From assembly GCF_009728735.1 (NCBI RefSeq), contig NZ_CP024637.1:260119-324118 (forward strand): 64,000 bases of DNA, given 5' to 3'. Positions 14,786-53,020 of this stretch are shown in pieces. Origin of the DNA: Pantoea phytobeneficialis (GTDB taxonomy: Bacteria > Pseudomonadota > Gammaproteobacteria > Enterobacterales > Enterobacteriaceae). The translations under genes were made by a program, and so were the position numbers. How positions within the stretch are numbered: position 1 is the stretch's first letter; every line of letters begins with the position of its first letter. The notes under the pieces were generated by a model. It saw nothing but the letters and a program-made list of their open reading frames with translations. It ran no database searches and was not told the DNA's origin.

Positions 14786-14813
14786 GTAGCGGCGCGATTT
14801 ATCGCGCCGCTAC
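14786..14813. repeat. REP-like palindrome, copy 3 (full 28-bp form)
   Basis: The complete palindrome gtagcggcgcga-ttta-tcgcgccgctac, between the convergent chemoreceptor and methyltransferase genes. Confidence 0.85.
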
Positions 14814-39415: not shown

Positions 39416-40039
39416 TTATTCTTTGGCGTAGAGATACACCGAAGCACGCGAAACGCCCAGTTGCTGTGCAATCACCTCCATTGATCGCTTTACCTCAAGT
39501 AACCCGCTGGTGCGCAGTTCCTGCATCAGCGTCTTACGATCGGCCGCTTTTAGCGCGCGCGGCGTGGTCGCCAGACGCGCGGCGAACTGTTCAATCCGCT
39601 GCCGTAAGGCTTCTGTACCTGCCGGTTCCAACTGCTCTGTAATATCACGGGTGGCAATCTGGGTGAACTGCGCCAGTGCGCTTTGCATACCGCGAAACAG
39701 CGTCATATCCACATTCAGACACAGCGCCGCCACATAGTTCCCTTCGGCATCTTTCAGACCAATCGAGGTGCTCTTTACCGCACGTCCGTCAGCCAGCTGA
39801 TTCGCATAGTTTGTCAGAAGCGAAGGAAATTCCGGCGAGGCAATACGCGCCAGGCCCAGTTCGGTAGTCGGTTCACCGATTTCCCGTCCGGAAAGATTGT
39901 TATAAATGGCAAGAATGGAGTGTTCTGGATTTTGTAAATCGTGCACCACCACCTCGCAAAACGGGGCAAAAGTGGCGCTCAGTCCTTCGGCGATGGTGGT
40001 CAGCTGCGCCAGCAGCAAGGCATTTTGCTGATCGGGCAT
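39416..40039 (-). CDS. YheO/DauR-type transcriptional regulator
   Basis: The 207-residue protein has an N-terminal YheO-like PAS domain (ATFAPFCEVVVHDLQNPEHS, then NLSGREIGEP, DGRAVKSTSIGLKDAEGNYV). The C-terminal HTH has the form seen in the D-arginine utilisation repressor DauR (KRSMEVIAQQLGVSRASVYL). It is divergent, by 89 bp, from two PLP enzymes that look like hydroxyaspartate or D-/L-hydroxyamino acid dehydratases. It therefore likely controls them in response to their substrate. Confidence 0.85.
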   Translation of the reverse strand: MPDQQNALLLAQLTTIAEGLSATFAPFCEVVVHDLQNPEHSILAIYNNLSGREIGEPTTELGLARIASPEFPSLLTNYANQLADGRAVKSTSIGLKDAEGNYVAALCLNVDMTLFRGMQSALAQFTQIATRDITEQLEPAGTEALRQRIEQFAARLATTPRALKAADRKTLMQELRTSGLLEVKRSMEVIAQQLGVSRASVYLYAKE

Positions 40040-40128
40040 CGTGGCTCTCCAAAATGGCTAGATTATTTGTCTAATTTTATATATTTTGTCATTTCAATGC
40101 AAAGTCCTTCACCTAAAAGGTTAACCGC

Positions 40129-41097
40129 ATGACTGAGTTTACTTTGCCGACTTATGATGACGTCGCAGCCGCCACACAGCGTATCCAGCCCTATATCAAC
40201 CCGACGCCGGTCATGACCTCGCGCAGTCTGAACGAGGCGTTAGAGGCCGAAGTTTTCTTCCAGTGTGAAAACTTTCAGCGCATGGGAGCGTTTAAATTTC
40301 GCGGTGCCCTCAACGCGTTATTACAGTTCACCCCCGAGCAGCGTAAAGCCGGGGTGGTGGCGTTCTCCTCCGGCAACCATGCGCAGGGTGTCGCGCTGGC
40401 GGCAAAATTACTCAGCATTCCAGCCACCATCGTGATGCCGTTGGATGCCCCGGCGGCCAAACTGGCCGCGACCAGAGGGTATGGCGCTCAGGTGGTGACG
40501 TATGATCGCTACAGCGAAGACCGGGAACAGATTGGTCGCGATCTGGCGGAAAAACACGGCCTGACGCTGATCCCTCCTTATGATCACCCACATGTGATCG
40601 CCGGACAGGGTACCGCCACTCAGGCATTGCTGGCGCAGACCGGCCCGTTGGATGTGCTGTTAACACCACTCGGCGGCGGCGGATTACTGGCAGGCAGCGC
40701 GTTGGCAGCACGTCATCTCAGTCCGGGTATCACCATTTATGGTGTGGAACCCGCAGCCGGAAATGACGGTCAGCAGTCGTTACGCGCGGGAAAAATCATC
40801 CGCATCGAGACGCCCAAGACCATCGCCGATGGTGCACAGACCCAATATCTTGGTCGCTACACTTTCCCGCTGATTCAAAGCCTGGTCGACGATATTCTTA
40901 CCGCCAGTGATGAACAGCTGATCGCGGAAATGCGTTTCTTTGCCGAGCGCATGAAAATGGTGGTGGAACCGACCGGCTGCCTGGGGCTGGCCGCGGTGCG
41001 GGCTGATAAAGCGCGTTTCCGTGGGAAACGCATTGGCATTGTGATCAGTGGTGGTAACGTCGATATCAGTCGTTTCGGCACCTTGCTGGCTAACTAA
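40129..41097 (+). CDS. Threo-3-hydroxy-L-aspartate ammonia-lyase / Thr-Ser dehydratase type
   Basis: The 322-residue fold-type II PLP enzyme has the PLP lysine in QRMGAFKFRGALNALLQF, SSGNHAQGVALAAK as the substrate loop, and the glycine-rich phosphate loop LGGGGLLAGSAL. It lacks the C-terminal ACT domains of biosynthetic threonine deaminase. The length and motifs fit threo-3-hydroxyaspartate ammonia-lyases and serine racemase-type enzymes. The neighbour 17 bp downstream, a D-specific type III PLP dehydratase, favours hydroxyaspartate or D-/L-serine catabolism. Confidence 0.78.
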   Translation: MTEFTLPTYDDVAAATQRIQPYINPTPVMTSRSLNEALEAEVFFQCENFQRMGAFKFRGALNALLQFTPEQRKAGVVAFSSGNHAQGVALAAKLLSIPATIVMPLDAPAAKLAATRGYGAQVVTYDRYSEDREQIGRDLAEKHGLTLIPPYDHPHVIAGQGTATQALLAQTGPLDVLLTPLGGGGLLAGSALAARHLSPGITIYGVEPAAGNDGQQSLRAGKIIRIETPKTIADGAQTQYLGRYTFPLIQSLVDDILTASDEQLIAEMRFFAERMKMVVEPTGCLGLAAVRADKARFRGKRIGIVISGGNVDISRFGTLLAN

Positions 41098-41114
41098 TCG
41101 CGCAGGAGACGTGT

Positions 41115-42257
41115 GTGAAATCGCTTCCCGAGTGGCTTACGCAACTTGAAACCCCGTTTTTATTGATCGATGAAGCGCGTTATCAACGCAATATCGACCG
41201 TTTATACCAACGCGTGGCGCAGCTGGGTAGCCAGGTGCGACCGCATCTGAAAACGCTGCGTTCGGTGGAAGCTGCCGCGTATCTGTTGCCGCAGGCGGAT
41301 CATCCGGCCACCGTGTCCACCCTGGCAGAAGCGGAAGGCTTTGCCGCTGCCGGTTACCGCAATCTGTTGTATGCGGTAGGGATTGCGCCGCATAAATTGC
41401 CGCGTGTGGCGCAACTGATGCGTCAGGGTGTCCAGCTACACATTCTGCTGGATACGCCAGAACAAGCCCTGGCGGTCACCGAGTTTGCCCGCCAGCAGCA
41501 ACTGACCTTTTCGGTTTTTATCGAAATCGACTGCGATGGCCATCGCGGCGGTATTCCACCTGACAGCGAGACGTTGCTGCAACTGGCGCAGCAACTGGAA
41601 GGACAAGGTGCGACCGTCACCGGACTGATGGCCCATGCTGGTGAATCTTACAACTGCCGTAGCGAAGAAGCGATTCGCGCTGCTGCACGCGCTGAGTGTG
41701 ACGCCATTCGTCTGGCGGCACAGCGGGTGCGGGCGGCGGGCATTGCCTGCCCGATTCTCAGCGTTGGCGCAACGCCGACCGCGCATTATGCCGCGGAGCT
41801 GGAGAGCATCAGCGAGGTGCGTGCCGGGGTCTTCACCATGTTCGATCTGGTGATGCATAACGTGGGGGTATGCCAGAAGCAGGATATTGCTCTGTCGGTG
41901 GTAACCACCGTGATCGGCCATAACACGGCAAAGAACTGGGTGTTTGTTGATGCGGGTTGGATGGCGATGTCACGCGATCGCGGCACCGCGGCGGGGCCGG
42001 TCGATTATGGTTATGGGCTGGTTTGCGATATGCAGGGTGCCCCGTTGGATGTATGCCTCAGTACCACCAATCAGGAACACGGCATCATCAGCCTGCCTGA
42101 GAACGGTACGCTGACACCAGCGGATTTTCCGGTGGGTTCCCGTCTGCGCATCCTGCCCAACCACGCCTGCGCCACCGCCGCCATGCATCAGCATTACCAG
42201 GTATGGCAGGCAGAAAGCGAACAGCCGCGCGTCTGGTCACGCATTATGGGATGGTGA
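41115..42257 (+). CDS. D-serine / D-threo-3-hydroxyaspartate dehydratase-like PLP enzyme
   Basis: The 380-residue fold-type III (alanine-racemase-like) PLP enzyme has PFLLIDEARYQRNIDRLYQR, the PLP-lysine region VRPHLKTLRSVEAAAYLL, and the C-terminal zinc-site motif ILPNHACATAAMHQHY (His-x-Cys). This pattern is shared by eukaryotic-type D-serine dehydratases, D-threonine aldolase and D-threo-3-hydroxyaspartate dehydratase. It starts at GTG 41115 with AGGAG six bases upstream. It follows the L-type dehydratase gene in what is probably one operon with it. Confidence 0.8.
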   Translation: MKSLPEWLTQLETPFLLIDEARYQRNIDRLYQRVAQLGSQVRPHLKTLRSVEAAAYLLPQADHPATVSTLAEAEGFAAAGYRNLLYAVGIAPHKLPRVAQLMRQGVQLHILLDTPEQALAVTEFARQQQLTFSVFIEIDCDGHRGGIPPDSETLLQLAQQLEGQGATVTGLMAHAGESYNCRSEEAIRAAARAECDAIRLAAQRVRAAGIACPILSVGATPTAHYAAELESISEVRAGVFTMFDLVMHNVGVCQKQDIALSVVTTVIGHNTAKNWVFVDAGWMAMSRDRGTAAGPVDYGYGLVCDMQGAPLDVCLSTTNQEHGIISLPENGTLTPADFPVGSRLRILPNHACATAAMHQHYQVWQAESEQPRVWSRIMGW

Positions 42258-42268
42258 ACGTGACGCCG

Positions 42269-43426
42269 TCACTGAATAAAACGCAGATGACGGCTATCAA
42301 GATGCGCCAGTGAGGCAACGCCCAGCATACCTAAATCACGGCTGACTTCGCTGGTGATCAGGTCAATCGCCAGATGCACGCCTTGCTCGCCACCAACGGC
42401 GCAGGCGTAGTTAAATGGCCGCCCAATAAAACAGGCTTCGGCACCGAGTGCCAATGCTTTGATGGCATCGGTGCCCCGGCGGATACCGCTATCCAGCATC
42501 ACCGTCATTTCACCCGCGGCAGCAACGATTTCCGGCAATACATGGATGGGCGCGATGCTGGTATCCAACTGCCGTCCCCCGTGGTTCGACACCACGATCC
42601 CGTCAATGCCAATTTCTTTACAGCGTTGCGCATCGCGCTGGCTGAGGATGCCTTTAATCACCATCGCGCCAGACCAGCGACGGCGGATATGTTGAATATG
42701 TTCCCAGGTGAGATGGCTGCGGCCGCTGAAATCCCTGACCGCATGTTTGGAAAACAGCGGAGCACCGCGCACCGCCTGATTGTTTTCAAACCACGGCATG
42801 CCGCGTTTTAGCAGGGTTTTGATTAAGGTGCCGGTCAGCCAGCGGGGATGGGTGAGGCCCTCATATGCCAGTCGCAGGCTGGGTCTGAACGGGGTGGCAA
42901 ACCCGGCGCGTACGTTATTCTCACGGTTAGCTTTCACCGGGGTATCCACCGTCACTACCAGCACCGGAATACGCGCCCGCGCCACGCGGTCGATCAGCAG
43001 ATCAATCTCTTCATAGCTTTTTGGCAGGTATGCCTGAAACCACATCGCCGGATTGGCCTCCGCGACTTCTTCCAGCCGCATCAGCGAGGAGCCGCTCATA
43101 ATAAACGGGATATTTTTCGTCGCCGCCGCTTTTGCCAGCGTCAGATCGCCTTCAAAACCAGTGATGGCGCTGATCCCCATCGGCGCAATCCCCACCGGAG
43201 CGGCATAGCGATGACCGAACAGCGTAACTTCGGTATTGCGCTGTGACACATCCACCATATTGTCCGGTATCAGGCTGTAGCGTGCGTACGACGTGAGGTT
43301 ATGGTCGCGAGAAAGGTTGTCCTCGACACCACCGGAAACATAGGCGAACAACGGGCGTGGCAGATGTTTTTGGGCGTACTTCTCGAAATCATTTAACGAC
43401 AGGCAGCGGTTGGCAAGTTTGCGCAT
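42269..43426 (-). CDS. FMN-dependent alpha-hydroxy-acid oxidase/dehydrogenase
   Basis: The 385-residue TIM-barrel flavoprotein belongs to the lactate dehydrogenase (LldD)/glycolate oxidase/mandelate dehydrogenase family. The active-site His and Arg are in GIDGIVVSNHGGRQLD, the FMN phosphate loop in MLDSGIRRGTDAIKALALGA, and Tyr in FAYVSGGVEDN. The substrate is not certain (L-lactate or another 2-hydroxy acid). It converges on the dehydratase gene. Confidence 0.85.
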   Translation of the reverse strand: MRKLANRCLSLNDFEKYAQKHLPRPLFAYVSGGVEDNLSRDHNLTSYARYSLIPDNMVDVSQRNTEVTLFGHRYAAPVGIAPMGISAITGFEGDLTLAKAAATKNIPFIMSGSSLMRLEEVAEANPAMWFQAYLPKSYEEIDLLIDRVARARIPVLVVTVDTPVKANRENNVRAGFATPFRPSLRLAYEGLTHPRWLTGTLIKTLLKRGMPWFENNQAVRGAPLFSKHAVRDFSGRSHLTWEHIQHIRRRWSGAMVIKGILSQRDAQRCKEIGIDGIVVSNHGGRQLDTSIAPIHVLPEIVAAAGEMTVMLDSGIRRGTDAIKALALGAEACFIGRPFNYACAVGGEQGVHLAIDLITSEVSRDLGMLGVASLAHLDSRHLRFIQ

Positions 43427-43545: not shown

Positions 43546-43617
43546 GTAGCGGCGCGATTTATCGTGCAATTTCCTGCGTGGAGCTAGAAAACCCCGCGCG
43601 ATAAATCGCGCCGCTAC
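43546..43617. repeat. REP-like palindrome, copy 6 (inverted pair)
   Basis: gtagcggcgcgatttatcg then, after a ~30-bp spacer, gcgcgataaatcgcgccgc with tac: two inverted copies facing each other between the regulator and oxidase genes. Confidence 0.85.
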
Positions 43618-43638: not shown

Positions 43639-44649
43639 TTAAATTCGATCCATAAATGAGGGCAGTGCTGGCACCGGCAGCACCGACAACACTTTCAGAC
43701 GTTGCAGGGTGCGTACCTGTGCACGTTCCAGATGGTCACGCAGGCAGCCAGCAGCCAGCTCCCAGTTACCTTTCAGCAGCATCTCATACACCAGGCAATG
43801 CTCTTCCAACATCGCGGTTTCCACCGGGATGGACAGCAGATCATAAAAGATGCGCGTGACGATAAACGGCGACTGGTTTTGCCGCAGAATTTGCATCATC
43901 AATTTATTGCCTGCGGGTTCCAGGCAACGTACATGCAAATCCTCCTCCAGTAACTCCAGTTCGGCGGCGCTGAGTTGCTGACCTTTATAGCGTTGCGCTT
44001 TTTCCAGTGATGCCGTCAGCCACTCGACCGGCAGCAGGCGACCCGCTTTGCGGAGCGCGGTGGGTTCGAGGCTGGCGCGAATTTCGAAGTGGTCAGCAAT
44101 TTCGCGTGCGGTCAGGGGACCGGTCAGCCATTGGGAATAGGGTTCTTTTTCCACCAAACCTTTATCACGCAGGCGCATCAGGCTTTCCCGAATAACCGCG
44201 CGGCTGACGTTGTAGTGCTGTGCGGCCAGTTGTTCGTCGAGTTGATAGCAGCCAAACACCATTGCCGTCGAGAGCACCACTTGCAGGTTATCCAGCACCT
44301 TTTCGCCGGTGCTGCGGGTATCCACCAGCGCCTCTTGTTCATCCAGACCCAGCAGTTCACGCGTCAGTCCGGCGCGTAACGGTTCTGGTTCCTCGTCCTC
44401 TTTCGCCACAATAAAGCCGCGACCTTCAAAGCGCGCGATTAACCCTTCTTCATGCAGCAGGCTCAGGGCGCGGCGTACCGGGACACGGCTGGTGCCAAAC
44501 AACTGTGCCAGCGGCCCCTCCAGCAAGACCAGACCTTGCGGAACTCGCTTCTGTATCAATACGTTATGCAAAACCTGTCGGATCACTTCATAGCGCGCAG
44601 AACCGGTTTCTTCCGTCGCTGCCGGGGTGTTGTTTGTCAGCATTCTCAT
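43639..44649 (-). CDS. GntR/FadR-type regulator with two winged-helix domains
   Basis: The 336-residue protein has two successive GntR winged-helix motifs before the sensor domain. The first (~18-82) ends FGTSRVPVRRALSLLHEEGL and RFEGRGFIV. The second (~115-180) reads YNVSRAVIRESLMRLRDKGL. An FCD-type all-helical ligand domain follows (~185-325, DHFEIRASLEPTALRKAGR). The usual FCD protein has one HTH and about 220-250 residues, so this is an extended form. It starts at ATG 44649 or 44643. It is divergent from the deacetylase-led operon and probably controls it together with nitrogen regulation. Confidence 0.8.
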   Translation of the reverse strand: MRMLTNNTPAATEETGSARYEVIRQVLHNVLIQKRVPQGLVLLEGPLAQLFGTSRVPVRRALSLLHEEGLIARFEGRGFIVAKEDEEPEPLRAGLTRELLGLDEQEALVDTRSTGEKVLDNLQVVLSTAMVFGCYQLDEQLAAQHYNVSRAVIRESLMRLRDKGLVEKEPYSQWLTGPLTAREIADHFEIRASLEPTALRKAGRLLPVEWLTASLEKAQRYKGQQLSAAELELLEEDLHVRCLEPAGNKLMMQILRQNQSPFIVTRIFYDLLSIPVETAMLEEHCLVYEMLLKGNWELAAGCLRDHLERAQVRTLQRLKVLSVLPVPALPSFMDRI

Positions 44650-44718
44650 GTCATCGGCCCTGTTTTCATCGCGCTACATTATCACATCCGGGCGGGCTGC
44701 AAAGTCGCGTAATGGCGA

Positions 44719-44735
44719 AGCACAATTATGGTGCA
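44719..44735. promoter_or_regulatory. NtrC (NR-I) enhancer site
   Basis: agcac-aattat-ggtgca matches the NtrC consensus TGCACC-N5-GGTGCA at 10 of 12 defined positions, with GCAC and GTGC separated by seven bases. It lies about 175 bp upstream of a sigma-54 promoter, a usual enhancer distance. An overlapping GTGC-N5-GCAC (44731-44743) may be an operator for the GntR-type protein. Confidence 0.6.
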
Positions 44736-44908
44736 GCTCGCACAATAACGGATCATATTTATAAATATACATCTTAAGGACGAGCTGGAGAGACTCGCAG
44801 CGTTTTCTTTCAGATGCTGACGATGATCATGTAACGAATTGAAAACACGTAGTTAACCGGTATTTTTCTATCTTATCAGGTGATCAATTCCTCCCGGCGG
44901 CAAGATCC

Positions 44909-44924
44909 TGGCATGAGCATTGCA
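44909..44924 (+). promoter_or_regulatory. Sigma-54 (RpoN) promoter
   Basis: TGGCAT-GAGCA-TTGCA agrees with TGGCAC-N5-TTGCW, with the exact GG-N10-GC spacing (44910-44923). Transcription would start near 44935, about 40 bp before the deacetylase start codon. Confidence 0.7.
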
Positions 44925-44973
44925 ATTAACAAATGGATATTATTTTCAAATATACATTTATGGAGTTGCAGAT

Positions 44974-45849
44974 ATGGCCAAAGAAATCCTTTGCGCATTT
45001 GGTGTAGACGTCGATGCTGTTGCCGGTTGGTTGGGTTCTTACGGCGGCGAAGATTCCCCTGATGATATCTCTCGCGGCTTGTTTGCCGGTGAAGTCGGCG
45101 CGCCACGTCTGCTGAAGATGTTTGCCGAGCAGAATCTGCGTACCACCTGGTTTATTCCCGGCCACTCGATTGAAACCTTCCCCGAGCAAATGAAAGCGGT
45201 GGTGAATGCCGGTCATGAAATCGGTATTCACGGCTACAGCCATGAAAATCCCATCGCCATGACGCCAGCGCAGGAAGAGGCGGTGCTGGATCGCAGCATC
45301 GAACTGGTGACCCAACTGGCAGGCAAACGTCCGACCGGCTATGTCGCCCCCTGGTGGGAATTCAGCAACGTCACCAACGAGTTACTGCTGAAGAAGGGTA
45401 TCAAATATGACCACAGCCTGATGCATAACGATTTCCGTCCTTACTATGTGCGCGTCGGCGATAGCTGGACCAAAATCGACTACAGCCAGCACCCCGATAG
45501 CTGGATGAAGCCGTTACAACGCGGAGCAGAAACCGATCTGGTGGAGATCCCGGCCAACTGGTATCTCGACGATCTACCGCCGATGATGTTTATCAAAAAA
45601 TCCCCCAACAGCCACGGTTTTGTTAACCCGCGTCATCTGGAAGAGATGTGGCGTGATCAGTTTGACTGGGTTTACCGCGAGAACGACTACGCGGTGTTCA
45701 CCATGACCATCCATCCCGACGTGTCTGGCCGCCCACAGGTGTTGCTGATGCTGGAGCGTCTGATCCAGTACATCCGTAGCCACGAAGGCGTCCGTTTCGT
45801 CACCTTCGATGAGATTGCCGACGACTTTAAACAGCGCCAACCGCGCTAA
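44974..45849 (+). CDS. Polysaccharide-deacetylase-fold hydrolase (PuuE/PgdA/cyclic imidase-like)
   Basis: The 291-residue NodB-like metal hydrolase has its first metal motif at residues ~10-15 ([20 protein letters not shown]), a His box at 86/90 ([13 protein letters not shown]), and the third motif APWWEFSN. This combination is typical of the PuuE allantoinase / HpPgdA / cyclic-imide hydrolase branch, which acts on amides and imides of small molecules as well as peptidoglycan. There is no signal peptide, so it should act in the cytoplasm. ATG 44974 has GGAG upstream. It is the first gene of the sigma-54-controlled operon and most likely its hydrolytic entry enzyme. Confidence 0.8.
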
Positions 45850-45865
45850 GTACGCATACCGTCCC

Positions 45866-45922
45866 GTAGCGGCGCGATTTATCGCGTGAATGGCAGGACA
45901 GCGCGATAAATCGCGCCGCTAC
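45866..45922. repeat. REP-like palindrome, copy 7 (inverted pair)
   Basis: gtagcggcgcgatttatcgc and gcgcgataaatcgcgccgct, facing each other between two genes of the same operon. Confidence 0.85.
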
Positions 45923-45954
45923 GGAATATGAACCCCTGACAGAGTGATAGCGCT

Positions 45955-47319
45955 ATGAGCATCTTTAAGAAAATCTCCGTAAATGGCTGGCAGCCGCAGC
46001 AGTTGACCATCAGGGACGTAAAATTTGCCACCTGGATTGCTTTTTTCGCCTGGGTTTTTGCTGTTTATGATTTCATCCTGTTTGGCACCCTGCTGCCGGA
46101 AATCGGCGGCCATTTCGGCTGGAGCGAGGTTGAGCAGGCGGAAATCGCCACCTGGGTGGCGGTCGGCGGAGCGGTGATTGCACTGGCAATTGGCCCATTG
46201 GTCGACCGTCTCGGTCGCCGCATGGGGATTGTGGTCACCGTCGGGGGCGCGGCGATCTGCTCGCTGCTGACCGCTGTCGGTGGTGCCTGGGGTAAAGGCG
46301 CGCTGACCGCGATTCGTTCGGTGGCGGGGCTGGGTTATGCCGAGCAGACCGTCAATGCAACCTACCTGTCTGAGCTTTACACCGCCATCGACGACCCGAA
46401 ACTCAATAAACGCAAAGGTTTTGTTTACAGCCTGGTGCAGGGCGGCTGGCCGGTAGGGGCGCTGGTGGCCTCGGCGCTGACGGCGATTCTGATGCCGATC
46501 ATCGGCTGGCAGGGCAGCTTTATCTTTGCCGCGCTGCCGTCACTGGTGATTGCGGTTCTGGCGTTGAAACTGAAAGAAACTCCGCAATTCCAGGTCCAGA
46601 AAAAGATCCAGCAACTGCGCGCTGAAGGTAACGATCGCGATGCCCGCCAGGTTGCAGACGATTATCAGGTTTCATATGAAGAACAGCACAACGCCGGTCT
46701 GGCTGCTGCCTTCCGTGGCCCGTCACTGCGCGCCACGCTGGTGTTAGGCGGTGCGGTGTTAATCAACTGGTTTGCCATCCAGATTTTTAGCGTACTCGGC
46801 ACCACGGTGATCACCAAAACCCATGACGTTTCCTTTAACAACTCGCTGCTGATCCTGATTCTCTCTAACCTCGTGGGCTACTGCGGCTATCTCGTGCACG
46901 GCTGGCTCGGCGATCGCATTGGCCGTCGCAACACCATTGCGGTTGGCTGGATGCTGGGCGGCGTCTCCTTTGCCGCGATGCTTTACTGCCCGGATAACTT
47001 CGCCACTATCGTTGCCCTGTACAGCATCGGCCTGTTTTTCCTGATTGGCCCCTACGCAGCAGCGCTGTTCTTTATCAGTGAAAGTTTCCCGACCGCCATC
47101 CGTGCCACGGCCGGTGCGTTGATTGGTGCGATGGGACCGGTCGGCGCGATTATCGCCGGTGTCGGTACGACCAGCGTCCTGAGTAGTGGTGGACACTGGC
47201 AGGATGCTGCGCTGTGGTTCGGTGCTGTCCCGTGCTTTATCTCCGGCATCATTATGTTTTTCGCTCGCGCACATGCACCACAACGCGCGGGTGTCAGTTC
47301 AGCGGTCACCACCGCTTAA
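45955..47319 (+). CDS. MFS transporter of the sigma-54 operon
   Basis: The 454-residue major facilitator has about 12 helices. The first-loop motif is GPLVDRLGRRMGIVVTVGGA and the second-half repeat is HGWLGDRIGRRNTIAVGWM. ETPQFQVQKKIQQLRAEGND forms the central cytoplasmic loop. It belongs to the metabolite:H+ symporter type (sialate/benzoate/proline-like). As the only complete transporter in the cluster it is the best candidate for substrate uptake. Confidence 0.83.
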   Translation: MSIFKKISVNGWQPQQLTIRDVKFATWIAFFAWVFAVYDFILFGTLLPEIGGHFGWSEVEQAEIATWVAVGGAVIALAIGPLVDRLGRRMGIVVTVGGAAICSLLTAVGGAWGKGALTAIRSVAGLGYAEQTVNATYLSELYTAIDDPKLNKRKGFVYSLVQGGWPVGALVASALTAILMPIIGWQGSFIFAALPSLVIAVLALKLKETPQFQVQKKIQQLRAEGNDRDARQVADDYQVSYEEQHNAGLAAAFRGPSLRATLVLGGAVLINWFAIQIFSVLGTTVITKTHDVSFNNSLLILILSNLVGYCGYLVHGWLGDRIGRRNTIAVGWMLGGVSFAAMLYCPDNFATIVALYSIGLFFLIGPYAAALFFISESFPTAIRATAGALIGAMGPVGAIIAGVGTTSVLSSGGHWQDAALWFGAVPCFISGIIMFFARAHAPQRAGVSSAVTTA

Positions 47320-47328
47320 GGAATGGTT

Positions 47329-48105
47329 ATGCACCTTACGTCCTCAACTCAACCGGTTGCCGCTATCAGCGGCGCCGCCAGCGGAATTGGCCTGGCGCTG
47401 GCTACGCTCTACGCCCAGCGTGGCGTTAACGTGATCGCCGGTTACTATCCCGCCGATCCGCACGATCCGGCCTTAGCGGCGGCGCAGGTAGAAGCCGCCG
47501 GGGGCAATGCCCTCTGGCTACCGCTGGATGTGGCCTCGACTGACTCGGTAGATGCGTTTATCGCGCAGGGCGTGCAGCACTTTGGTCGTCTCGATTATAT
47601 GGTGGCGAATGCCGGTATCCTGCGTCGCGCGCCGATTGAAGAGATGAGCGACGCACGCTGGGATGACATGTTAAACGTCGATCTGACCGGCGTGATGCGC
47701 TGTTTCCGTGCGGCCACGCCGCATCTGCACGCCGGAGCCAGTCTGGTGGCGGTTTCCTCCATTGCCGGTGGCGTTTACGGTTGGCAAGACCATGCTCATT
47801 ATGCTGCCGCCAAAGCGGCAGTGCCGGGCATCTGTCGTTCGCTGGCGGTGGAACTGGCACCGCGCGGCGTGCGCTGTAATGCCATCATTCCCGGCTTGAT
47901 CGAAACGCCGCAATCGCTGGATAAGCAGAACTCTCTTGGCCCGGAAGGGTTGGCAAAAGCAGCCAGCGCTATTCCGCTGGCGCGGGTGGGGCGACCGGAA
48001 GAGATCGCCAAAGTGATTGCCTTCCTTACCAGTGAAGAGAGCAGCTATCTCACCGGACAAAGCCTGATTGTTGATGGCGGTCTGACGGTACGCTGGCCGG
48101 ATTAA
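47329..48105 (+). CDS. Short-chain dehydrogenase/reductase 1
   Basis: The 258-residue NAD(P)-dependent SDR has the cofactor motif ISGAASGIGLALATLYA, NAG (VANAGILRR) and the catalytic Ser-Tyr-Lys set in VSSIAGGVYGWQDHAHYAAA with K following. ATG 47329 is seven bases after AAGG; a start at 47323 would overlap that SD. Its gene follows the MFS stop codon by 9 bp. It is probably one of two oxidation or reduction steps of the catabolic pathway. Confidence 0.85.
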   Translation: MHLTSSTQPVAAISGAASGIGLALATLYAQRGVNVIAGYYPADPHDPALAAAQVEAAGGNALWLPLDVASTDSVDAFIAQGVQHFGRLDYMVANAGILRRAPIEEMSDARWDDMLNVDLTGVMRCFRAATPHLHAGASLVAVSSIAGGVYGWQDHAHYAAAKAAVPGICRSLAVELAPRGVRCNAIIPGLIETPQSLDKQNSLGPEGLAKAASAIPLARVGRPEEIAKVIAFLTSEESSYLTGQSLIVDGGLTVRWPD

Positions 48106-48114
48106 GGAGCCACT

Positions 48115-48861
48115 ATGCAATTGCAGAATAAACGTTGTGTGATTACCGGCGCGGCCAGCGGCATTGGGGCGGCGATTGCCGTCCTGTTCGCCCGTGAGGG
48201 GGCGAGGTTGATATTGACCGATCGTGACGCCGATAAACTGGCGTGGCAGGTGACGCAATGCCAGCAGCTCGGTGCGGAGTGTCACGCGGTGGTGGCGGAT
48301 GTTGGTGAGATCAAGGGTGCCACCGCTGGCGTAGACGCCTGCCTCACGCGTTTTGACGGTATTGATGTGCTGGTCAATAACGCCGGGATGTTAACTCAGG
48401 CGCGTTGCACGGAGATCACCCTGGCGATGTGGGAAGAGATGATGGCGGTGGATCTGCGTAGCGTGTTTCTCGCCACTCAACGGGCGCTGCCCGTCATGCA
48501 GGCTCAGCGCTGGGGCAGGGTGATTAACATCGCCTCGCAGCTGGGGATCAAAGGAGGCGCGGAGTTGTGTCACTATGCCGCCGCCAAAGCCGGTGTGATT
48601 GGGTTTACCAAATCGCTGGCGCTGGAAGTCTCGGCGGATAACGTGTTGGTCAACGCCATCGCCCCCGGCCCGATTGAGACGCCACTGATTGATGGCATCA
48701 ATCAGGCATGGAAGCAGGCCAAAGCGGCTGAATTGCCGCTGGGACGCTTTGGTCGTGCTGAAGAAGTGGCACCGGTAGCGCTGCTGCTCGCCAGTGAACC
48801 CGGCGGCAACTTGTTTGTCGGCCAGACGCTGGGACCCAATTCTGGCGATGTGATGCCCTGA
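48115..48861 (+). CDS. Short-chain dehydrogenase/reductase 2 (FabG-like)
   Basis: The 248-residue SDR has CVITGAASGIGAAIAVLFAR, VNNAGMLTQ, the Ser in INIASQLGIKGG and the Tyr-x-x-x-Lys in CHYAAAKAGV; the C-terminal PGPIETPLIDG is typical of FabG-type 3-oxo reductases. It is distinct from SDR 1 in the same operon, so the two probably act on successive intermediates or opposite stereoisomers. Confidence 0.85.
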   Translation: MQLQNKRCVITGAASGIGAAIAVLFAREGARLILTDRDADKLAWQVTQCQQLGAECHAVVADVGEIKGATAGVDACLTRFDGIDVLVNNAGMLTQARCTEITLAMWEEMMAVDLRSVFLATQRALPVMQAQRWGRVINIASQLGIKGGAELCHYAAAKAGVIGFTKSLALEVSADNVLVNAIAPGPIETPLIDGINQAWKQAKAAELPLGRFGRAEEVAPVALLLASEPGGNLFVGQTLGPNSGDVMP

Positions 48862-48872
48862 CGGAGGCAATG

Positions 48873-49157
48873 ATGTGTGGAGTCTGCGGCCTGCTGGATA
48901 ACGGGCCGCAGTGGAGCGATCCACTGCGCCAGGATATCCCCCAACGTCAGCTACGTTTGCAACAACTGGCGCTGCTTAACCGCGCGCTCAAGCCGTGGCG
49001 ACTGACGTTAACCGAGTTTCACAACAGTTGGCTGTTAGCCAGCCCAACCGGACAACAAGTGCTGGTGAATTCTCTGGATGTACTGTGGCAGGAAGCGGAA
49101 AAGATGATCCGACGTCCTGTCGATCCACTGGATGATAACTGGCTGAACGTGCTGTAA
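48873..49157 (+). CDS. Small MCGVCG protein, unknown
   Basis: The 94-residue protein follows a strong SD (GGAGG) with two adjacent ATGs (48870, 48873). From the second ATG it begins MCGVCGLLDNGPQWSD. That start resembles the N-terminal Cys of class II glutamine amidotransferases (MCGI-G), but the protein is far too short to hold that fold. The CxxC could instead bind a metal or act as a thiol pair. The remainder (ALKPWRLTLTEFHNSWLLAS, NSLDVLWQEAEKMIRR) shows nothing I recognise. It sits directly before a CobW-type GTPase, so a metal-related partnership is possible. Confidence 0.6.
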   Translation: MCGVCGLLDNGPQWSDPLRQDIPQRQLRLQQLALLNRALKPWRLTLTEFHNSWLLASPTGQQVLVNSLDVLWQEAEKMIRRPVDPLDDNWLNVL

Positions 49158-49166
49158 GGAGAGCGG

Positions 49167-50189
49167 ATGGATTATCAGGAAAAGTTACCCTTACACGTAC
49201 TGAGCGGCTTCCTTGGCAGCGGTAAAACCACCTTGCTGAAAGGCTGGCTGGCGCAACAAAACCTGAATGAGGTCGCGTTGCTGGTCAATGAGTTCGGCGA
49301 AGTGGGTATTGACCACCATTTGCTGAATGAAGTGGCACCGGATACCGTGCTGCTGCCGAGTGGCTGCGTCTGCTGTCAGATCCGTGGCGAGTTGAAAACC
49401 GCGCTGCTCGATCTGTTTGAACGTCGCACGCGTGGCCTGCTGCCACCGTTTAAGCAGGTGATTCTGGAAACCACCGGACTCGCCGACCCCTCGCCGATTC
49501 TTTCAACGCTGCTGCACGATCGACAACTCCAGCATCATTTCATTCAGGGCACGCTGGTGACACTGGTGGATGCGGAACATGCGCGTATGCAGGCGGATGT
49601 ACAACCTGAATGGCTGGCGCAGGTTAGCGCGGCAGATAAATTGCTGATAAGCAAAAGCGATCGCATCAACCCATCGCAGCAGACCTTGCTGGCTGACTGG
49701 CTAGGTCAGCTCAACCCACTGGCACAACTTAGCGATACGCGTACGGCGCTGAACGACCCGCATAGCCTGTTTCTCCTGCCGTTACGCAGCGGTTCACGCC
49801 AACAGCGTTTTCGCTGGCTGGGTGCCTGCGCGAATGATGGCTACCGGCTGGCACCGACGACGCACAGCGTTTCACATCCGGTTACGCAAACCTGCGTGAT
49901 CACTCTGCATCAGTCGTTAAACTGGCCAGCATTTGCTATCTGGCTGTCAATGCTATTACATTGCCACGGTCGCACGGTGCTGCGGATGAAGGGCATTTTA
50001 CGTGTCAGCGACAGCAGCACGCCGATTGTTATCCACGGTGTGCAACACACCTTACATCCGCCGGTACATCTGCACGACTGGCCCGGTGAGCTGGAGAGTT
50101 CAAAACTGGTATTTATTTTGCGCGGTCTGGAGGCCGATCGCCTGCAACAGGCGTTCAGCCGCTACCTGCGGGCGTTTGAGGAGCCATAA
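49167..50189 (+). CDS. CobW/COG0523-type GTPase, probable metallochaperone
   Basis: The 340-residue G3E P-loop GTPase has Walker A GFLGSGKTT (14-22), the metal-binding GCVCC at 66-70, the switch ETTGLADPSPIL, the guanine motif SKSD, and a C-terminal CobW_C domain (FAIWLSMLLHCHGRTVLRMK). COG0523 proteins deliver Zn2+, Co2+ or Fe to particular enzymes; within operons they often load the metalloenzyme encoded beside them. The deacetylase-fold hydrolase is the natural client here. Confidence 0.85.
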   Translation: MDYQEKLPLHVLSGFLGSGKTTLLKGWLAQQNLNEVALLVNEFGEVGIDHHLLNEVAPDTVLLPSGCVCCQIRGELKTALLDLFERRTRGLLPPFKQVILETTGLADPSPILSTLLHDRQLQHHFIQGTLVTLVDAEHARMQADVQPEWLAQVSAADKLLISKSDRINPSQQTLLADWLGQLNPLAQLSDTRTALNDPHSLFLLPLRSGSRQQRFRWLGACANDGYRLAPTTHSVSHPVTQTCVITLHQSLNWPAFAIWLSMLLHCHGRTVLRMKGILRVSDSSTPIVIHGVQHTLHPPVHLHDWPGELESSKLVFILRGLEADRLQQAFSRYLRAFEEP

Positions 50190-50193
50190 CGGT

Positions 50194-51387
50194 ATGAATT
50201 CTGCGGCAGTGGTCAACGACCAACTGACCTTACGCGTGCTCGGAACCTCCGTCACGCTGCTGGAGATGCTGCGCGTGCGCGCGGAGCAGGATCTCGGCAT
50301 CAAAATTGAATATATGCTGCGCAGCGTCGAAGATGCGCAGCGCATCGCGGTGATGCATCCCGAAAGTTATGACCTGTACGACCAATGGTTCCACAACATC
50401 GATTTTGTCTGGCCTGCACGCGCCATCCAACCGCTGGAGATTAAGCGGCTGACCTGGTGGGACGAAGTCAATGCCCTGGCAAAAACCGGCACCCTCAACA
50501 CCGATGGGGTGCTGGCCGATGGCAGCGTGCCATCGCAACGCTTATATGTGCAACGTGATTTGCACCTCGGTAGCCAGCCAAGCGATCACATCAGTATGCT
50601 GCCGCTGACCCACAATGCGGATAGCTTCGCTTATCACGTTGACCGGCTGCCTGCGGCCTTGCAGGGCGCAGAGGAGAGCTGGGGGTGGTTGCTGCATCCG
50701 GCGCTTACCGGCCAGGTCGCGTTGCAGGAAGATGCCGCGATGGGGGGACTCGATGCGGCGCTGGCGATGCAGGGCGCGGGGCTGGCGCGGTTTGCCAACA
50801 CCGGCAACCTGACGCTGGAAGAGATTGATGTGCTGACGCAGGCGCTGTCGCGCCTTAATCGCCACGGGCATTTCGCCGCGTTCTGGGCCACCCAGGAGCA
50901 GGCGTGTGATTTGATTGAAAACCGTCAGGTGGAGGTGCAGAGTCTGTGGGCACCGATCTACTTCCGTCACCACTTCCATCAACGTGGTTATAAGATGGCG
51001 CATCCGCGCGAAGGCTATCGTGCATGGTATGGCGGCATGTCGTTGTCACGTTGCGCCACCGGCAGAATTAAAGACGCGGCTTACGCTTACCTGAACTGGT
51101 GGCAATCCGGCTGGCCGGGAGCGGTGATGGCGCGCCAGGGCTATTACATCTCTAACCCGGAGCGCAGCCGCGCGCATCTCTCTACCGCCGAGTGGGATTT
51201 CTGGTATGGCGGCAAACCCGCCGCAGAAATGCTTTACGACGCATGGGGCGCACCGTTGATACCGGAAGGCGAAAGCCGTGACGGCGGCAGCTATGAACAA
51301 CGGATGAGCCATATCGCGGTGTGGAACTCGGTGATGGATGAACACAATTATCTGACACGCCGCTGGCAGGATTTTTTGCGTTCGTAA
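50194..51387 (+). CDS. PotD-like binding protein without signal peptide
   Basis: The 397-residue protein resembles family 1/8 extracellular solute-binding proteins (spermidine/putrescine type): IKRLTWWDEVNALAKTGTLN, LLHPALTGQVALQEDAAMGG, and a C-terminal YYISNPERSRAHLSTAEWDF. Unusually, the start (MNSAAVVNDQLTLRVLGTSV) shows no signal peptide, and no permease or ATPase gene is near. The start at 50194 is forced by the preceding gene, and the longer frame reads through the GTPase. It may be a cytoplasmic protein with a binding-protein fold, or an enzyme that arose from one. Confidence 0.65.
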   Translation: MNSAAVVNDQLTLRVLGTSVTLLEMLRVRAEQDLGIKIEYMLRSVEDAQRIAVMHPESYDLYDQWFHNIDFVWPARAIQPLEIKRLTWWDEVNALAKTGTLNTDGVLADGSVPSQRLYVQRDLHLGSQPSDHISMLPLTHNADSFAYHVDRLPAALQGAEESWGWLLHPALTGQVALQEDAAMGGLDAALAMQGAGLARFANTGNLTLEEIDVLTQALSRLNRHGHFAAFWATQEQACDLIENRQVEVQSLWAPIYFRHHFHQRGYKMAHPREGYRAWYGGMSLSRCATGRIKDAAYAYLNWWQSGWPGAVMARQGYYISNPERSRAHLSTAEWDFWYGGKPAAEMLYDAWGAPLIPEGESRDGGSYEQRMSHIAVWNSVMDEHNYLTRRWQDFLRS

Positions 51388-51399
51388 TCATTTTACCAA

Positions 51400-51461
51400 T
51401 GCGCGATAAATCGCGCCGCTACAACCAGCAAAAACAAGCGTAGCGGCACGATTTATCGCGC
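51400..51461. repeat. REP-like palindrome, copy 8 (inverted pair)
   Basis: gcgcgataaatcgcgccgct then gtagcggcacgatttatcgc: two inverted copies, here with the order reversed (arms facing outward), between the binding protein gene and hipB. Confidence 0.8.
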
Positions 51462-51487: not shown

Positions 51488-51530
51488 ATATGGTGACAAA
51501 ATTATATTAATAGATACTTTGTCACTATAT
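51488..51530. promoter_or_regulatory. HipB operator repeats upstream of hipB
   Basis: atatggtgacaaaa (51488-51501) and its near-inverted copy tttgtcactatat (51518-51530) flank a 16-bp AT-rich centre just before hipB. The same element recurs twice after hipA. Confidence 0.55.
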
Positions 51531-51549
51531 GGATACATGCGGAGGGGTT

Positions 51550-51801
51550 ATGTTGCCAGGTATGAAAGCCATCGGCCTGAAATGTCGCGAACGGCGCAAA
51601 GCCAAAGGCTGGACCCAACAGGTCGCGGCCTCACGCGCGGGCATTCATCGCACGCTGGTTTCAGAGATCGAGAACGGTGCCTACACTGGCTCGCTCAAGG
51701 CGTTTACCCTTTATCTCACCGCGATGGATTTGATGCTGACGGTACAAACCGCGGGTTTACCGCAGTTGGATGAGCTGGAGGCGTTGTTTGATGATGACTG
51801 A
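51550..51801 (+). CDS. hipB: HipB-like antitoxin, XRE-type HTH
   Basis: The 83-residue Cro/CI-type HTH protein (KAKGWTQQVAASRAGIHRTL, then VSEIENGAYTGSLKAFTLYL) has an acidic tail (QLDELEALFDDD). It acts as DNA-binding antitoxin and autorepressor for HipA. I chose ATG 51550, just after GGAGGGG; starts at 51529 and 51562 are alternatives. It overlaps hipA by 11 bp. Confidence 0.78.
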   Translation: MLPGMKAIGLKCRERRKAKGWTQQVAASRAGIHRTLVSEIENGAYTGSLKAFTLYLTAMDLMLTVQTAGLPQLDELEALFDDD

Positions 51802-53020
51802 TCTGAGCCAGCTCTCCCGACCCATTCGTCAGATTGAGGTCTATAACGGCGGTGAATACAGTGGCAGGCTGTTGCATGAACACGGCAGCTATAACTTCAC
51901 CTATGCCAGTCCCGCCAGCCGTCGCGTGTCGCTGACCATGTTGCCGGATAACCGTATGGGTTATAACGCCAGCCGGTTGTTTAACATCTTTGAGATGAAT
52001 ATCCCGGAAGGGTACGTGCGTTACCATATCGCGGAGCGCTTGCGTCGCTACGTCGGTAGCATCTCCGACATGCTGTTTCTGGCATTGCAGCAAGATACCG
52101 GGATTGGCGCGCTTTCCTGCGTCAGCGATATCAATTTACCGCGTCCCACACCGGAGAAGCTGGAGGATTTACTGCGTTGGGATCATAAAGAGAGCGCCTT
52201 CCAGTATCTGTTGAACAAATATCTACTGCAAACCACCATCTCCGGTGTGCAGCCGAAAGTGATGATCAGCAGTGAAAGCCGGGGCACGGTGCTGTATCCC
52301 AATCTGATTGCGAAAACCGGTGATGAAGAGTATCCCCGCCTGGCGGAGAACGAGTTTATCTGTATGTCTCTGGCGCGCGCCTGTGGCTTGCCGGTAGCGG
52401 ATTTTTGGCTATCAGATAACAAAGAATTGTTCATAATGGAGCGCTTTGATATTCAGGGAGAAAAGCGGCTGGCAATGGAAGATTTCTGCGTGCTGGCGGG
52501 TAAGACTGCGGATCATAAATACACGGGTTCATATGAAACCGGTGCCAGAATTGTCAGCCTGTTCACCCGCGACCAGGCGCAGGTCGAGCTGTACTGGCGC
52601 TATGTGTTGTTCAGTTGCATGGTGGGCAACGGTGATGCGCATCTGAAAAACTTTTCGCTGGTTTATCAGGCGGAAGGGGCAGCAATGCCACAACTCTCGC
52701 CATTATACGATGTGGTCAATACGCAGATTTACCCAACCAACGATAACGAACTGGCGTTAAAACTGAATAAAAGCAAACAATTTCCCGATCGGGACAACCT
52801 GATTAAATTTGGCCGCGAGTTAAAAATCATTCATCCCGAGCGAGTGCTGGAGGAGTTTGCCGATGTCATCAGCACCCAACTGACGCATTGTGCTGACTTC
52901 CCTGAATTGCAGGCTGCCATTGGACGCTCGCTGACCCGCAGCGGCGCAACTAACAACCTGTTCATGAATACCGATGTGAAAAGGCCGAAGAAAAGAAAGA
53001 CCGATGTATTGCTGAAGTGA
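51791..53020 (+). CDS. hipA: HipA-family serine/threonine kinase toxin
   Basis: The 409-residue protein has the HipA layout: an N-terminal domain (EVYNGGEYSGRLLHEHGSYN), the activation loop SGVQPKVMISS near residue 150, and the catalytic and metal-binding loops FSCMVGNGDAHLKNFSLVY and LSPLYDVVNT. HipA kinases phosphorylate tRNA synthetases and cause persistence. All catalytic residues I can place are intact. It starts at ATG 51791 (SD GGAGG, nine bases), with an alternative at 51794, overlapping hipB for coupled translation. Confidence 0.85.
   Translation: MMTDLSQLSRPIRQIEVYNGGEYSGRLLHEHGSYNFTYASPASRRVSLTMLPDNRMGYNASRLFNIFEMNIPEGYVRYHIAERLRRYVGSISDMLFLALQQDTGIGALSCVSDINLPRPTPEKLEDLLRWDHKESAFQYLLNKYLLQTTISGVQPKVMISSESRGTVLYPNLIAKTGDEEYPRLAENEFICMSLARACGLPVADFWLSDNKELFIMERFDIQGEKRLAMEDFCVLAGKTADHKYTGSYETGARIVSLFTRDQAQVELYWRYVLFSCMVGNGDAHLKNFSLVYQAEGAAMPQLSPLYDVVNTQIYPTNDNELALKLNKSKQFPDRDNLIKFGRELKIIHPERVLEEFADVISTQLTHCADFPELQAAIGRSLTRSGATNNLFMNTDVKRPKKRKTDVLLK

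Follow-up and report, generated by a model that had tools for sequence, protein, structure and literature searches.

Sequence and gene-context analysis of a Pantoea operon predicted to scavenge nitrogen from cyclic imides under NtrC and sigma-54 control

In bacterial cyclic-imide metabolism, an imidase opens the ring and a half-amidase then hydrolyses the resulting half-amide, and we know of no regulation, transport or maturation genes described for it. The same two steps are part of the scheme that we propose here for an operon of seven collinear genes in Pantoea phytobeneficialis, which lies on a 64,000-nucleotide stretch of contig NZ_CP024637.1 (positions 260,119 to 324,118; hereafter the window) and begins with a gene for a CE4 hydrolase. 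Relatives of this hydrolase have been described from a fungus and from Helicobacter pylori. In Aspergillus nidulans, HxnM, which matches the CE4_HpPgdA_like domain and is more than 60% identical to a P. putida cyclic-imide hydrolase, is proposed to open the 3-hydroxypiperidine-2,6-dione made by HxnW, a short-chain dehydrogenase/reductase (SDR), after which the amidase HxnN frees the nitrogen (PMC9304392, PMC8478523); both papers cite the imidase of P. putida YZ-26. The structure paper on H. pylori HP0310 (HpPgdA) found no activity on the N-acetylated compounds tested or on allantoin, named residues D12, D14, H86, H90 and H247, described an active site that is small and closed, noted the lack of a signal peptide and favoured a small-molecule substrate (PMC3084791).

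The hydrolase gene of the window (44974..45849, + strand, its start placed at ATG 44974 by frame and an upstream GGAG) encodes a protein that matches HP0310 (3qbu, 4ly4) over its full length (291 residues, 540 bits, E 1.1e-161) and keeps all of the residues named above. By sequence it is a member of the HP0310/HpPgdA subfamily of CE4, which also includes the fungal cyclic imidase HxnM, and we predict that it is a cyclic imide hydrolase. An earlier note on this DNA had called it PuuE/cyclic-imidase-like; the PuuE allantoinase identity was rejected (TIGR03212, 86.4 bits against a cut-off of 424.6).

The genes that accompany the hydrolase in its relatives point to a ring amide that would be opened to a half-amide, without fixing which ring. 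An amidase gene is the first gene of the operon in Klebsiella plasmids, Pantoea sp. Nvir and several Pantoea species, the last in three rhizobial plasmids (Shinella, Rhizobium and Agrobacterium) and in the genome G307, and it lies beside or near the CE4 gene also in Pseudomonas-type, Paraburkholderia, Halomonas and Leisingera loci. In Thioclava, Skermanella, Paracoccus, Rhodococcus and two haloarchaea, the hydrolase gene has an asparaginase gene next to it or nearby, the Rhodococcus order being asparaginase-CE4-MFS-SDR-SDR, then an old-yellow-enzyme (OYE)-type reductase. Annotated dihydropyrimidinase genes are found near the hydrolase in Skermanella, Paracoccus and Sulfitobacter, and the transporter type varies among loci, with major facilitator superfamily (MFS) carriers, polyamine-type ATP-binding cassette (ABC) genes in the rhizobial versions and an NCS1 (uracil/allantoin-type) permease in Leisingera and Halomonas. 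Of the amide, imide or ureide nitrogen use suggested in the earlier note, scavenging from amides or imides is supported by the HpPgdA/HxnM membership and by the amidase, asparaginase and NCS1 neighbours seen in many relatives, but not in all of them.

The clustering of SDR, imidase and amidase genes, complete in several other Enterobacterales and in Pseudomonas-type loci, is incomplete in the window, where the amidase is missing. Among 61 same-genus genomes, 12 carry the hydrolase at E 1e-100: the amidase is intact in five, has a broken frame in one (G178, the same locus as Pantoea ananatis LMG 2665, where the assembly splits it over two reading frames, L013 4774-6160) and is absent from the operon in five, while in another genome (G448) the locus is truncated; the five without it are the window genome, G435, G443, G408 and G409, the last four of which were read around the operon only. 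No amidase ortholog was found elsewhere in the window genome, in which the best match reaches 43% over residues 27-242 of 446 and eight other amidase-like places occur. As a side observation, the complete amidase-containing operon is carried by Klebsiella IncF plasmids (L015, L016 and L017), two typed as conjugative and one as mobilizable, with insertion sequence (IS) elements after it.

Gene linkage and co-occurrence suggest that, in Pseudomonadota, the metal site of the CE4 hydrolase is matured by the products of two further operon genes, a small MCxxCG protein of an unnamed family (48870..49157, + strand), the predicted accessory protein, and a COG0523/CobW-type GTPase (49167..50189, + strand), the predicted metal insertase, which has CobW N- and C-terminal domains (PF02492, 1.3e-39; PF07683, 1.1e-20), the Walker A motif GFLGSGKTT and a CxCC motif, CVCC, at 67. 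In a sample of 385 alphaproteobacterial genomes, 21 of which carry the hydrolase at E 1e-100, we compared 20 loci, one per genome, with G307 treated apart and second hydrolase copies at 60-61% identity (G525, G627) outside the count. The MCxxCG and COG0523 genes lie directly 3' of the hydrolase gene in 19 of these 20, and the three genes likewise stand in a row in G307; the exception, L124, encodes the most distant hydrolase of the 20 (60%) and has an MCxxCG-like stretch on the opposite strand and no COG0523 match. In Mesorhizobium the two genes lie ~5 kb downstream, and near three CE4 paralogs of 35-37% identity neither was found in ~20 kb.

The hydrolase was found in 13 of 398 Pseudomonadota genomes, with at least 66% identity in ten and as paralogs at 37-39% in the other three, and an MCxxCG profile matched exactly those ten and none of the other 388. 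The chance of a random ten-on-ten overlap is 4e-20, but the ten span only six genera; the search scored at most 11 candidate stretches per genome, and the profile rows came partly from loci of seven of the ten positive genomes, which leaves the absence in other genomes unaffected. The MCxxCG family itself is large (3414 profile matches at E 0.01, with no Pfam label on any of 120 among the matches listed), and its invariant residues, over 54 sequences, include C3, C6, G7 and W15 (window numbering) and D85-P86-L87. An Ntn-hydrolase domain (class II glutamine amidotransferase) was looked for in the window's MCxxCG protein and gave no Pfam match, the first 18 residues of the model having a pLDDT below 50. 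The earlier note had the GTPase loading the hydrolase metal, a proposal that the tight gene linkage favours and from which the MCxxCG partner had been omitted. Separately, a second CE4 group with ~35-40% identity to the window hydrolase (L058, L059, L060 and L135) had no MCxxCG or COG0523 gene found nearby, and in a Salmonella plasmid its CE4 gene comes after a carbon-nitrogen hydrolase gene.

Between the divergent regulator gene and the hydrolase gene lie an NtrC-type enhancer palindrome, AGCACAATTATGGTGCA (44719..44735, + strand; GCAC-N7-GTGC at 44720-44734, 17 bp with its flanks), and, 174 bp apart from it, a sigma-54 -24/-12 promoter, TGGCATGAGCATTGCA (44909..44924, + strand), which follows TGGCAY-N5-TTGCW with GG-N10-GC spacing; the positions reported for both in the earlier note were exact. 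Each site taken alone is weak evidence. TGGCAYN5TTGCW occurs once in the window against a shuffle mean of 0.51, and since 39 of 100 shuffles reach one occurrence, the sigma-54 pattern by itself, at whatever place in the window, falls short of significance; GCACN6GGTGC gives three listings (two places) against a shuffle mean of 1.39, with 19 of 100 shuffles reaching three. The two patterns at a spacing of 150-180 bp occur a single time in the 5,715,714-base genome, at this operon (reversed control, 0), and the genome encodes both NtrC (812.3 bits, cut-off 558.6) and sigma-54 (rpoN; 530.4 bits, cut-off 277.35).

Control by NtrC and sigma-54 in Enterobacterales is strongly supported by a footprint across 13 distinct promoters (the window, same-genus members, Pantoea sp. 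Nvir and a Klebsiella plasmid, with duplicate locus records counted once and the G448 locus, L081, left out as its hydrolase gene lacks a start). TGGCAY-N5-TTGCW is found in all 13 and GCAC-N7-GTGC in 12, Pantoea sp. Nvir having a GCCC variant, and the two sites are 172-175 bp apart in ten promoters and 163 bp apart in three. Identity to the window base averages 57.5% over these promoters, and the near-invariant runs of at least three bases take in both NtrC half-sites, both sigma-54 boxes and TACAT/CATTTA elements. Between the NtrC palindrome and the upstream operator-like element, the runs ATAA and GGATCA (44750-44755), both within 44745-44755, are conserved to the same degree as the known sites. 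In Pseudomonas-type operons, the sigma-54 site TGGCACGAAAGCTGCC is present in all three assessable promoters and imperfect NtrC-like sites in two of them, a fourth locus, which stops short of the regulator, being outside this count.

The divergent regulator, a GntR/FCD protein of 336 aa with two GntR-type stretches (43639..44649, - strand; PF00392, 1.4e-17; PF07729, 3.6e-11), has a divergent ortholog adjoining the Enterobacterales and Pseudomonas-type operons, and probably binds two operator-like elements, neither of which had been weighed, any more than the regulator itself, in the earlier note. The upstream element, AATATACATCT (44764..44774, + strand), has a TACAT core in at least 12 of the 13 promoters, and its exact pattern is found in the window and in part of the loci examined. 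The second, AATATACATTT (44949..44959, + strand), lies just 3' of the transcription start expected at ~44936, contains the conserved runs AAT and CATTTA, and reads AATGTACATTT in L050, L052 and L053. AAT(A/G)TACATT-like elements flank the promoter in Pseudomonas-type loci as well.

The last gene of the operon (50194..51387, + strand) encodes a protein whose model has a PotD/PotF/YdcS fold (pLDDT 79.5, pTM 0.80; Foldseek to PotD chain 8y5i_E, E 7.9e-16). Like the MCxxCG protein, it has no Pfam or NCBIfam match at E 1e-3; many of its homologs carry PF13416. The earlier note had described it as leaderless, and this was borne out: no export signal was seen by eye, and a simple test for motifs and uncharged stretches, used in place of a signal-peptide predictor, detected a twin-arginine (TAT)-type motif in 0 of the best 120 homologs and an uncharged stretch of at least 12 in the first 45 residues in three of those 120, compared with a TAT-type motif in all four periplasmic paralogs from the same alphaproteobacterial operons. 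The protein of the Pseudomonas-type loci (genus g44) is 63-65% identical to that of the window, about as identical to it as those of named Pseudomonas, and the loci are so called on this ground. Versions of the operon from alpha-, beta- and gammaproteobacteria all keep the leaderless form, which argues against a decayed transporter part, and our guess is that the protein may bind a ligand in the cytoplasm. Both this conserved leaderless protein and the dedicated helper pair look new.

The other genes of the operon, which has all seven genes that the earlier note had listed, encode an MFS carrier (45955..47319, + strand; PF07690, 1.3e-34) and two SDR oxidoreductases, the first at 47323..48105 (+ strand; PF13561, 3.7e-66) with SGAASGIG and YAAAK motifs and the second at 48115..48861 (+ strand; PF13561, 1.1e-54) with TGAASGIG and YAAAK motifs. 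The nearest NCBIfam model for the carrier, TIGR00895 (aromatic acid/H+ symporter subfamily), scored 136.5 bits, below its cut-off of 418.55.

We consider it reasonably probable that the operon is an NtrC-induced, GntR-controlled accessory module that scavenges nitrogen from a small cyclic imide, or from a hydroxylactam that is oxidised to an imide by an SDR. Upon nitrogen limitation, phosphorylated NtrC at 44719-44735 would activate sigma-54 RNA polymerase at 44909-44924, and the GntR/FCD protein, probably relieved by the substrate, would add specific control via two AATATACAT sites. The compound would be imported by the MFS carrier, the SDRs would set its oxidation state in the manner of fungal HxnW, in a direction that we infer, the CE4 enzyme, its metal site matured by the MCxxCG protein and the COG0523 GTPase, would convert the ring to a half-amide, and an amidase or asparaginase would release ammonia. 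As the operon amidase is missing here, another amidase of the cell must act, or the half-amide is used differently. The leaderless PotD-fold protein might bind the ligand or an intermediate in the cytoplasm.

A wider and more tentative proposal, to which we give somewhat less than an even chance, is that the MCxxCG protein and the GTPase make up a system of two parts, so far undescribed, which matures the metal centre of HpPgdA-type cyclic imidases across Pseudomonadota and is dedicated to them, that the true metal may not be the zinc assumed for HP0310, and that members of this subfamily with a polysaccharide or peptidoglycan deacetylase annotation are at root nitrogen-scavenging imidases, joined here with a cytoplasmic PotD-fold protein. 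A metal other than zinc might account for the lack of activity of recombinant HP0310 on the substrates that the structure paper tried.

Several observations weigh against a nitrogen-scavenging module of this kind. At E 1e-100, 49 of the 61 same-genus genomes, one of them of the same species, have no CE4 gene. Neither the NtrC nor the sigma-54 pattern was found between the regulator and the first gene in seven of seven alphaproteobacterial operons with a divergent GntR gene, so that control by NtrC and sigma-54 is not universal; the claim of such control in the earlier note is strongly supported for the Enterobacterales operons, which keep both sites, but not for these. Among the 20 alphaproteobacterial loci, an amidase is present in three and an asparaginase in one, and our queries showed neither in 16, no SDR in 15 and no PotD-like gene in any (some of these loci being short contig ends). 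The full pathway is therefore not universal either, and the PotD-like gene is part of the larger operon, not of the three-gene core. Over the flanks covered, neither an MCxxCG nor a COG0523 gene accompanies the CE4 gene in Rhodococcus or in two haloarchaea, and hence the helpers are not always needed. Finally, a later paper reports HP0310 as a peptidoglycan deacetylase and as an acetyl esterase that acts on acetylated xylan, chitin and p-nitrophenyl acetate (PMC3688963), and the structure paper notes genes for polyamine importers and D-Ala-D-Ala peptidases near relatives of HP0310 (PMC3084791), the latter being neighbours that an imide-scavenging account leaves unexplained.

These reports on HP0310 and its relatives, as well as the polyamine-type ABC genes of the rhizobial versions, would suit a CE4 enzyme that works in the cytoplasm on cell-wall fragments, acetylated polyamines or sugars, as a de-N-acetylase or an acetyl esterase, in an operon that recycles them. 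We regard this as unlikely, given the inactivity of HP0310 on the N-acetylated compounds tested, its small closed active site and its lack of a signal peptide (PMC3084791), and the amidase, asparaginase, NCS1 and dihydropyrimidinase neighbours, which are a better fit to ring amides. Those same dihydropyrimidinase genes near the CE4 triad of Skermanella, Paracoccus and Sulfitobacter, the last with an N-carbamoyl-D-amino-acid hydrolase in addition, raise the question of whether the ring is instead a hydantoin, dihydropyrimidine or other ureide, as would the NCS1 permeases of Leisingera and Halomonas and a hydantoinase A domain protein in L105. We doubt this: the window operon has no recognised gene for a carbamoylase or hydantoinase, and none is annotated in the Klebsiella or Pantoea sp. 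Nvir operons, allantoin was no substrate of HP0310 (PMC3084791), and an amidase or asparaginase companion suits a half-amide and not a carbamoyl product. It is also quite improbable, in our view, that the operon of this strain is decaying after amidase loss and no longer yields nitrogen. The missing amidase ortholog, the broken amidase frame in another Pantoea assembly and REP-like repeats within the operon speak for such decay; against it, the remaining frames are all open, with 82-98% identity to their Pantoea rwandensis counterparts, the NtrC and sigma-54 sites are both intact, four other genomes share the amidase-less operon, and the other amidase-like places in the genome number eight.

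Around the operon, REP-like inverted repeats (GTAGCGGCGCGATTTATCGC and its complement) lie at 43598-43617, before the regulator, at 45866-45922, between the hydrolase and MFS genes, and at 51403-51459, after the last gene, with two further copies in the window at 14786 and 27256. A helix-turn-helix (HTH)/HipA-type toxin-antitoxin pair follows 3' of the operon (51529-53020), an arrangement shared with Pantoea sp. At-9b, and another such pair is located downstream of the leaderless PotD-like gene in Aminobacter. Left of the regulator, 39416-43426 holds genes for a threo-3-hydroxy-L-aspartate ammonia-lyase, a D-serine-dehydratase-like protein, an alpha-hydroxy-acid oxidase and a YheO-like regulator.

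Should the cyclic-imide reading be right, the large unnamed MCxxCG family would gain a testable partner and function, and metal maturation by COG0523 GTPases could be tested on a clear case. The operon would also put in question the peptidoglycan deacetylase label of HP0310-type enzymes and add a putative NtrC-controlled route to a nitrogen source, found on chromosome-sized contigs and on plasmids, some of them typed as conjugative.

In comparison with known systems, the operon is nearest in its chemistry to the fungal HxnW-HxnM-HxnN series, in which an SDR, an HpPgdA-like CE4 imidase and an amidase act in sequence on a cyclic imide (PMC9304392, PMC8478523); most likely it parallels that series, and in this strain a different enzyme would carry out the half-amide step. 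The control of the lower nicotinate pathway by nitrogen via AreA (PMC8478523) is a further likeness, and the OYE-type reductase of Rhodococcus recalls fungal HxnT. The earlier note knew of no described pathway with this gene set; the partly described fungal pathway has the same chemistry, but it is fungal, and the available text of its papers mentions no MCxxCG, COG0523 or PotD-like partner (PMC9304392, PMC8478523). The window operon, in turn, has no recognised upper nicotinate genes, and its gene set is incomplete because the amidase is missing. H. pylori HP0310 belongs to the same CE4 subfamily, with HP0312, listed as a COG0523 protein, two locus numbers away (PMC2770081) and polyamine importer genes near its relatives (PMC3084791), and differs in being described as a peptidoglycan deacetylase (PMC3688963). 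As for the helper pair, the gene of a COG0523 insertase such as the nitrile hydratase activator adjoins the gene of its metal enzyme (PMC2770081), as it does here, and the window operon differs from these known insertases in combining the GTPase with an unnamed MCxxCG partner and a CE4 enzyme as its predicted client.

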